64,000 nt of DNA from Bathymodiolus brooksi. Its lineage: Eukaryota; Mollusca; Bivalvia; Mytilida; Modiolidae. Where the stretch lies: assembly GCA_963680875.1 (NCBI GenBank), contig OY804575.1:29602494-29666493 (forward strand), given 5' to 3'. A program made the position numbers and the translations under genes. Below are positions 20,301 through 23,300 of this stretch, one piece after another; position 1 is the stretch's first letter; every line of letters starts with the position of its first letter. The notes beneath the pieces are model-generated. The model saw only the letters and a program-made list of their open reading frames with translations. It did not search any database and was not told the DNA's origin.

Positions 20301-23300
20301 TCCATATTATTATACTTTACTATAAAAACCAAGCAAGAAATAGTTTTATTCCATGGAACATGAAATAACTCATTATTCCTGCGGCAAACTGCACGTAGGT
20401 CAAATAACTGTGAGGGAATATGCACGTAGCACAAAATAACTGTTTGAAATTGGTGCGCTTTTGCACGTCGAACCAATAACTAGTTATTTCCCTCAGCACG
20501 TCGAACCAATAACTAGTTATTTCCCTCATATTAGTTCAGTATAATAATACAGTTATGTCCTTCATGAGAAGTTAATATCCATAATTATTAAATCTCGAAA
20601 GGGTTATTTTCCCTCCGTCCTTCGGACCTCGGGACAATAACCCTTTCTCAATTTAATAATTATGGATATTAACTTCTCATGAAGGCCATAATTGTATAAT
20701 ATACAATAAACTTGCATCATATTGATTATGAATATAATCAAATAGTGAATTACTATTACACAAGTTAATTGCGTACAGGGATGAACATGTAGATATATAG
20801 ATTGAGGTAACTGTTACTATGCCTACAGTGGAAGGATATATAATAATAAGATGTGCAAAGTGCTCAAATATATATATATAAATATCCATTTACCATTGAA
20901 CAAAATATGCAGATTTTGAGTTATATCAATAATGTCAAAATACTCCTACAATCAAGAATACTCCTAATTGGGAATTGTATCTCATACTGGTAATGAATTG
21001 ACATACAAAACAACCATAAAGAGACATTGATGTAAGTTTCCTTCAGATATTCTTAAATGTGTACAATGTATTACATCAATATTCTTTTTCTTTTTTCATG
21101 TTAAATGCATGTTGTCCTTTTATCTACTATACATTTATATTTTAACATGGGACAAAGAATAGAGAAATAACACACTGCAGAGTTGGAATTTTAAAAATCA
21201 TGAGGATAATTACTTTTGTATTAACGACTGAAAATAACTCAAAACAAACATTGAAGTGCACCCATCACACAAACCTGCGGCGTGAGATTATCCAAAAATT
21301 TTCTGTACATCTGATATTCTTTTAAAATGTCTTCAAATTTAGAGATCTCAGATTTTATTGTCATTATGTCTGCATTAACCCTCTTGATTTCCTGAACTTT
21401 CTCCAGTTTAGCTTTGGTTTCATTTTCTGCTCTAAATAAATAAACAAATAAAAACACAAATAGGTTGTGAAATATGACTATACAAATGTATATTACCATC
21501 ACTGTTTAAACTTTCGAAAAATTGCTGAGTTGGCGTTAAACAACAATCATTCACTCACTCGTTCACTATAAACTTTCTTTTCATAAGATATCTATACAAA
21601 ATATGTTTGTTGTGCAAATATTGAATACCAGTAAATAAAATCAAATATATATGCTTTTTAATATCATTAAATGATATCAGAGAAAACTATGGAACATTCT
21701 CTATACACCAAATGATTTGACCTTCACATATGTGCATATGACTTGTATTCTCTTCATGAACATTGATGCAAACAGCTAACAATTTTGACTTTTCATACAT
21801 CATAGCAAAAATTAATGAAATGAAAAATTTATGAATTTGCTGGGGAAAAAAGAAACTAATAATGCTATTTATTATTTCCTCTGTGAAAAGCTGCTTGATT
21901 ATCCAGAAGAGAAAAAAAACTCTTTTGCAATCATTAGCTTGAATATATCATTTTAACAAGTTTTTGATTTTATATACATGTACTGTATGCACCTGTATCT
22001 TTATAAGAATGCTCAATTTGATTTATCACTGTTGCTTGTTCATGAAGAGTAAATCATGACCCCACACAAGTCTAACAAAAATCAAACCTTTGGAGTAACT
22101 TTCTCAAGAAACTTTTTATATAACTTAAACTCTCTAAGGTTATCTTCATAGTTAGAGATTTGAGAATGTATAAGACTCATTTCAGAAGCAAAGGATTTAA
22201 CCATGGTGACCTTCTCCTGTTTTTCTCTCATTTGACCTTCATATCTAAACAATTAAGATAAATGAATTTAAAACATATGTTTTTGCTGTTAGAATATTTA
22301 TCATAGACTGCAGTTATCTACTTTCTTAGGTTTCAAGGTAAACAAAATGATATAGCAATATTCTTGATTCACTTGCAAGTTCTACCACAATAAGATACAT
22401 TAGAAAAACACGGGTAAAAAGGGGAGATAATCTACTGTATTTCTTAAAATAAATTCTCAATTATATTGTTATTGATTTACTGTGTTTAATGCCACTTTCA
22501 GTAATATTTCAACTATATCATGGCAAACCAGTTTTGGTGGTGGAAGAAGCCGGATTATCCAGAGAACCACTGACCATGGGCAAGCAACTGGTAAACTTTA
22601 TCACTTGCGGCTGCAAATCGAATGCACCCTTTTTTTGCAATTTACAAAGCCAGGCTCGAACCCACGCCATATTGGTGATAGGCTTATATGAGTTATTAGG
22701 TAATCCAACTACCTAACTCATTATATTGAGAAGAACATTATTAATGGTCATAAAAAATTCTTGATCATTTCATCTATATGATGTCCTTTGATAACTCTTT
22801 GTTGTAACTCTTCAACTGTAATAAATATAAACTTGACCTTACTGTATAAGATAAGATTTTTTCTTGAATATACCATGTAGTAAACATATAGTCCATTCAT
22901 AGTAGCTTTAAGCTCAATTTATCTGAGACATTTCAAATACTCAGCTATTTCTAAGTAAAATCTTCAGTCCCTTCGGTTTCGATGGAATGAAGGTTAACTG
23001 CATATAAATAGCTATTCATGTAATATTATAATCAGGATTCTAAGAAATAATTAATAATTCAATGTTTCAAGGCTAAAATTTTGTCTATCAAAGTTATTTT
23101 TTATTGAAATTGAGATTGCAAAAATGTAACAGAAATACTTGTGGGAACCATTTGTGGTTTATTTCCCTTTACTTGACAACAAATAGAACCAAATGACATT
23201 TAAAAATAACATCAATCTTCAACCTAAATGTGACAATAAAAAAATATAATCTATTTACAATCATTCATATAAAAAATATAATAGTTTGATCCACATGACT

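Follow-up and report, generated by a model that had tools for sequence, protein, structure and literature searches.

The window, that is, the whole stretch of 64,000 nucleotides of Bathymodiolus brooksi DNA that was analysed, carries the gene for CFAP100 on the minus strand (26997-8213), which encodes 581 amino acids in 15 coding exons and has one alternative exon in addition. Its coding part (8213..26997, with the ATG at 26997 and the stop codon ending at 8213) is supported by the spliced CDS, the close match to P0001 and the Pfam DUF4200 match. The coding part of exon 1 (26937..26997) was located by tblastn of the N-terminus of P0001, one of the database proteins nearest to the window, followed by a splice check, and exon 2 (26623..26703) by tblastn of a relative and the same kind of check. 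Splice checks also delimited exon 3 (25732..25823), exon 4 (24570..24750), exon 5 (23995..24062), exon 9 (17359..17407), exon 10 (16758..16909), exon 11 (15100..15198), exon 12 (12533..12649), exon 13 (12023..12119), exon 14 (11399..11518) and the coding part of exon 15 with the stop codon (8213..8329), all on the minus strand. Exon 6 (23413..23576) ends in phase 2 (AGA GA/gtaagt) and exon 8 (18233..18423) is entered in phase 0. Between these two lie exon 7A (22088..22244, donor AAG/GTTTGA), an extra and diverged copy, lying upstream, that encodes the second part of the DUF4200 domain, and the canonical exon 7B (21275..21431, donor CAG/GTTTGT), separated by an intron of 656 nt (21432..22087). 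Once exons 1 and 2 had been added to the model, the numbering of the original prediction, in which both are versions of exon 7, proved to be correct. All internal exon borders of the gene are AG/GT, and the spliced CDS has 1746 nt, 581 codons for amino acids and a single terminal stop, with 7A or with 7B alike.

The identity of the gene as CFAP100, proposed from the letters alone, was borne out by its homology to solved chains, by its domain content and by the mussel proteins nearest to it. DUF4200, the sole Pfam match at E ≤ 0.001, scored 122.9 bits in the 7B isoform and 105.5 bits in the 7A isoform (cut-off 29.7). Along its length the protein matched 8j07 (E 3e-125), 9fqr (E 3e-110) and 8glv (E 2e-81), where the best chains are named CFAP100 (8j07 and 8glv) or CCDC37 (9fqr). 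We take 8j07 to be the human structure and 8glv to be that of Chlamydomonas. The latter assignment fits the description in PMC10266980. These chains correspond to the mussel protein over its length, DUF4200 included, and their matching exon region is of the 7B type; all three give higher scores with the 7B isoform than with the 7A isoform. Among the matches listed, the closest database proteins were CFAP100 of mytilid mussels: the 7B isoform of the window shares 570 of 581 positions with P0001 and has 92% identity to the proteins of Mytilus galloprovincialis and M. trossulus. By these values the DNA belongs to a mytilid mussel that probably falls outside the group formed by the latter species.

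Several repeats were noted in the window. A tandem array with a 71-bp unit (about 211 copies, 96% match) fills positions 49097-64000 up to the end of the window and resembles satellite DNA, and long T-rich tandem repeats with 36-bp and 23-bp units occupy positions 1148-4091. The intron between exons 7B and 8 holds a 44-bp unit repeated 18 times (18662-19454, 99% match) and a palindrome with 77-nt arms that are 87% complementary and 3 nt apart (20539-20704), perhaps a small inverted-repeat element. Some 230 nt upstream of 7A there is a dispersed repeat (22471-22722) which is 85% identical to positions 33006-33265 and in part 74% identical to positions 8631-8761. Upstream of CFAP100, an open frame of 145 codons (28225-28659) resembles a fragment of a reverse transcriptase, judging by its motif.

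In the original prediction, exons 7A and 7B were described as a frame-enforced, mutually exclusive pair, and every sequence feature on which this description was built was confirmed. Both exons have 157 nt, AG/GT borders, entry in phase 2, exit in phase 0 and a stop-free frame, which starts at the second base of each exon. They agree in 21 of 53 residues, namely 20 of the 52 encoded by whole codons and the common split codon GAA (Glu). When splicing was carried out in a script, the joining of 7A to 7B gave S-R-K-stop and the direct joining of exon 6 to exon 8 gave E-R-Y-K-M-N-K-stop, i.e., the stop is the eighth codon. Hence an open CFAP100 protein results from 7A alone or from 7B alone, and double inclusion or double skipping leads to an early stop. 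The two exons thus show several of the features that characterise mutually exclusive pairs: they are adjacent and internal, equal in length, of the same phases and similar in sequence, both have open frames and AG/GT borders, and neither double inclusion nor double skipping is productive. The frame logic is exact, and the interpretation as mutually exclusive exons is supported at the level of sequence.

The similarity of the two exons far exceeds what chance would give. Ungapped alignment of 7A and 7B reached a BLOSUM62 score of 110, and outside the two exons, which were masked, the highest score anywhere in the window was 14 on the minus and 12 on the plus strand. When the 18-kb gene region was dinucleotide-shuffled 200 times, the best places on the two strands had a mean score of 4.8 and a maximum of 23, by which chance similarity was ruled out. 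Across the three introns between exons 6 and 8, 134 of 4,519 windows of 52 codons were open, and none of the 11 combinations of AG, 157 nt and GT was. The ungapped scan found no third copy of exon 7 in the window (next best score 14).

Relatives were searched by scoring 7,984 candidates, which yielded 988 proteins; 120 of these are listed, and as they are cluster representatives at 90% identity, other 7A isoforms may be concealed within the clusters. The canonical 7B type was present in 118 of the 120 listed relatives, and 7A stood in its place in two, P0006 (M. galloprovincialis) and P0007 (M. californianus, annotated as 'isoform X2'). Both versions are on record for M. galloprovincialis: between P0005 (7B) and P0006 (7A) there are 30 differences in 581 positions, the first at 217 and the last at 265, all of them within exon 7 (217-268), and the remainder is identical. 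Each exon is therefore found without the other in database proteins (7B in P0005, 7A in P0006 and in isoform X2, P0007); these are proteins from genome records, not reads, and since an annotation program never joins frame-breaking exons, the exclusivity seen in P0006 and P0007 is partly built in. No 7A-type segment was seen in the other 118 listed proteins (the best 120 of 988, as cluster representatives), which include isoforms annotated in scallops, a clam and nemerteans. Within this set, 7B is the exon type common to the listed animals and 7A a diverged extra copy, found here in mussels only.

Additional searches were done with the exon itself. The 7A segment as the only query scored 3 candidates and again retrieved P0006 and P0007, and a profile of the three 7A sequences scored 4 candidates among short proteins and retrieved P0121 and P0122; such segment searches require exact shared words of five residues, and distant relatives of 7A could thus be missed. 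P0121 (49 aa) is the window's own 7A frame, and P0122 (40 aa) is a 7A frame on a Logan contig of 1051 bases. In both, TPK is followed by a final V that translates the GT of the donor, so they come from unspliced sequence and the GT is kept at the donor of P0122. Over 39 compared positions, P0122 has 3 differences from the window and 9 from M. galloprovincialis; it may stem from another species or from a divergent allele. The 7A frame is consequently open in three species (that of the window, M. galloprovincialis and M. californianus) and in one further source (P0122). Loss of this frame in close relatives, which the original prediction had named as evidence against the pair, was not seen at the protein level, the frame being open in the two Mytilus species and in P0122. 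The full-length proteins nearest to the window (P0001, P0002 and P0003) are all of the 7B type and lie on Logan contigs of only 2.1-2.3 kb, which are therefore spliced; among the relatives searched, none of the short spliced contigs yielded a protein with 7A.

As to the origin of 7A, its segment alone matched three CFAP100/CCDC37 chains in the PDB (8glv, 8j07 and 9fqr, E 2e-6 to 4e-6; next match E 0.5) and did not match the CFAP73 chain that is also present in 8glv, which indicates derivation from CFAP100 rather than from CFAP73. On these matches to PDB chains, an origin from another DUF4200 gene was rejected. The place, length and phases of the two exons point to a tandem exon duplication. 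In a tree built from both exons of the window and 35 of the 120 listed proteins (52 columns), the three 7A rows formed one long branch of about two changes per site, and forcing them together with the mytilid 7B rows cost 2.1 log units, a union that was not rejected (p-AU 0.34). The branch length and this cost would also suit an old alternative exon that was lost elsewhere, instead of a duplicate from the mussel stem, an origin that is compatible with mutually exclusive use of the two copies. We consider it rather unlikely, given that the AU test leaves the union of mytilid 7A and 7B standing and that the 7A type is missing from the other listed proteins.

The comparison of the window with M. 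galloprovincialis gave 42 of 52 identical residues for 7A (ungapped), 49 of 52 for 7B and 53 of 80 for the linker encoded by exons 8 and 9. The difference of 7A (10/52 positions changed) from 7B (3/52) had a Fisher p of 0.07, and that from the linker (27/80) a p of 0.08. In a neutral simulation, ten replacements were placed in the 7A of the window; 2,144 of 4,000 runs remained stop-free, and 72 of 4,000 were in addition as conservative as the comparison with M. galloprovincialis (mean BLOSUM62 0.8). With nine replacements, as for M. californianus, 111 of 4,000 runs were both stop-free and as conservative. These protein-level tests moderately support purifying selection on 7A.

Out of 12 positions that are invariant in 77 distinct canonical segments, 7A keeps six and replaces five in every 7A sequence that covers them (A1Y, E4Q, E28Q, K31N and K37R; P0122 lacks positions 1 and 4), and Y42 is replaced by F only in the two Mytilus 7A sequences. 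The solved chains 8j07, 9fqr and 8glv all have the canonical residue at positions 1, 4 and 28; position 31 carries R in 8j07, and position 37 carries Q in 9fqr and E in 8glv, which makes the replacements at 31 and 37 less telling. In the helix core, the positions that are hydrophobic throughout the canonical segments mostly stay so in 7A; those lost are 9 (to Q) and 23 (to S), and 14 has become M or L. AlphaFold models of P0006 (7A) and P0005 (7B) contain an identical helix (147-265) that runs through exon 7, with pLDDT values, averaged in blocks of ten residues, of 77-92 and 74-91, respectively. The overall pTM of these single-chain models is low (0.22 and 0.23), and as both were built on the same 56 sequences, two of them of the 7A type, the 7A model leans on 7B rows.

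With respect to splicing, pairing with U1 was computed for 13 donors (exons 1 and 2 excluded), and that of 7A was the weakest (-4.9 kcal/mol); the other 12 ranged from -5.3 to -10.2 kcal/mol, with 7B (-8.3) among the strongest. The weak donor suggests that the 7A isoform is minor or restricted. A length of 656 nt makes the intron between the exons too long for steric exclusion, and both donors start with GTTTG, so that neither steric hindrance nor incompatibility of U2- and U12-type sites applies; exclusion enforced in these ways was rejected, there being a U12-type donor in neither exon. Among 104 inverted pairs of at least 14 nt, none of the 25 longest was obviously a selective docking-selector arrangement of the Dscam type, a count taken without shuffle control. 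Counts of a few splicing-factor motifs gave no clear lead, and GCATG was absent from the 2,424 nt examined. We infer a regulated choice with 7B as the default, in which the break of the frame and the decay of the mRNA would clear errors.

The most convincing explanation of these observations, and in our judgement a likely one, is that a tandem duplication inside the CFAP100 gene gave a second exon 7 and that the two serve as mutually exclusive exons, by which mussels probably build two versions of the CFAP100 anchor. The duplication would have produced 7A and 7B, each productive mRNA would take one copy, chosen by regulated splicing, with which the weak pairing of the 7A donor with U1 would agree, and mis-spliced CFAP100 mRNAs would probably be cleared by nonsense-mediated decay. 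Any difference between the two proteins would be confined to the second part of the DUF4200 helix, which we take to lie within the coiled coil that CFAP100 forms with CFAP73 in the MIA complex. As 7A keeps most hydrophobic positions and changes conserved charged ones, a contact is probably altered, and this could provide certain cilia or sperm flagella with a variant anchor.

Against this stands the view that 7A is a duplicate in the course of decay or seldom used, which is still open, is included by gene predictors because it looks like coding sequence and contributes little to real mRNA. The weakest of the 13 donors, the greater divergence of 7A than of 7B between mussels and the presence of 7B in the nearest proteins from short contigs would all be expected of such an exon; yet despite the wide divergence of 7A from 7B its frame and its length are intact in the three full sequences, as they are along 39 residues of P0122, its replacements are as conservative as in few of the neutral runs, and most core positions of its helix are retained, all of which makes decay improbable. 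The early stops after double inclusion (fourth codon) and double skipping could also be read as the purpose of the arrangement, with 7A mainly a switch-off exon and the pair tuning the amount of CFAP100 through mRNA decay instead of giving two proteins. A pure poison exon needs neither a conserved frame nor a helix core, however, and 7A keeps both; moreover, two database proteins use it productively, and we regard this explanation as highly improbable.

To our knowledge, CFAP100 has been regarded as an invariable component of the axoneme. Among the literature matches listed, which in places were a part of all matches, none described a CFAP100 isoform pair like 7A and 7B, and none combined CFAP100 with Mytilus; the single match that joined CFAP100 to mutually exclusive exons was a paper on multiple sclerosis. 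The Chlamydomonas MIA complex is described in PMC10266980 as a coiled coil of FAP73 and FAP100 that helps, along with other tethers, to hold inner dynein arm f, whose docking does not depend on it; a FAP100 helix makes a link between outer and inner dyneins, and Chlamydomonas mutants that lack MIA are slow swimmers (PMC10266980). In the alignment of the 7A segment with chain 8glv_AW, exon 7 matches about residues 185-236; this stretch may touch CFAP73, and the swap may alter a contact. It is conceivable, though we hold it as a tentative idea, that one mussel CFAP100 gene supplies two MIA complexes: by dropping residues common to all 77 canonical segments, three of which the three solved CFAP100 chains share as well, 7A would change the coiled-coil contact with CFAP73 or take another DUF4200 partner, and would so retune the inner-arm dynein in one class of cilia (e.g., sperm flagella versus gill cilia). 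A conserved swap within the long CFAP100 helix would offer a natural two-state variant of the inner-arm tether, and given that gill cilia and sperm of mussels are easy to obtain, the role of the exon 7 segment in the control of the beat is directly testable; the residues that are fixed elsewhere and replaced in 7A name the contacts to test.

The mechanism is a known one, and the pair in CFAP100 looks like a new case of it. In the human survey of mutually exclusive exons in PMC5740500, 377 clusters (60%) had exons whose length is not a multiple of three, and 87% of the regions encoded by mutually exclusive exons lay within secondary structure. Exons 7A and 7B share with these clusters that they are adjacent and internal, of like length, in the same frame and similar in sequence, and they also fit in having a length not divisible by three, a frame that is broken by combined inclusion, and a location within secondary structure; the human clusters were validated by junction reads (PMC5740500), whereas the CFAP100 pair is known from sequence alone and belongs to another gene and another phylum. 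Another bivalve example is the alternative oxidase (AOX) of the oyster Crassostrea virginica, for which PMC5589949 describes a duplicated last exon 10: its second copy is conserved, and its first copy, which carries novel changes, increases when the animals are exposed to air. AOX and CFAP100 are alike as tandemly duplicated exons of bivalves in which either copy is used, probably so in CFAP100 too, the size of the protein is unchanged and the second copy is the conserved one; they differ in that the oyster case concerns a last exon, 3' alternative splicing and measured expression, while that of CFAP100 is an internal pair held by the reading frame (PMC5589949).
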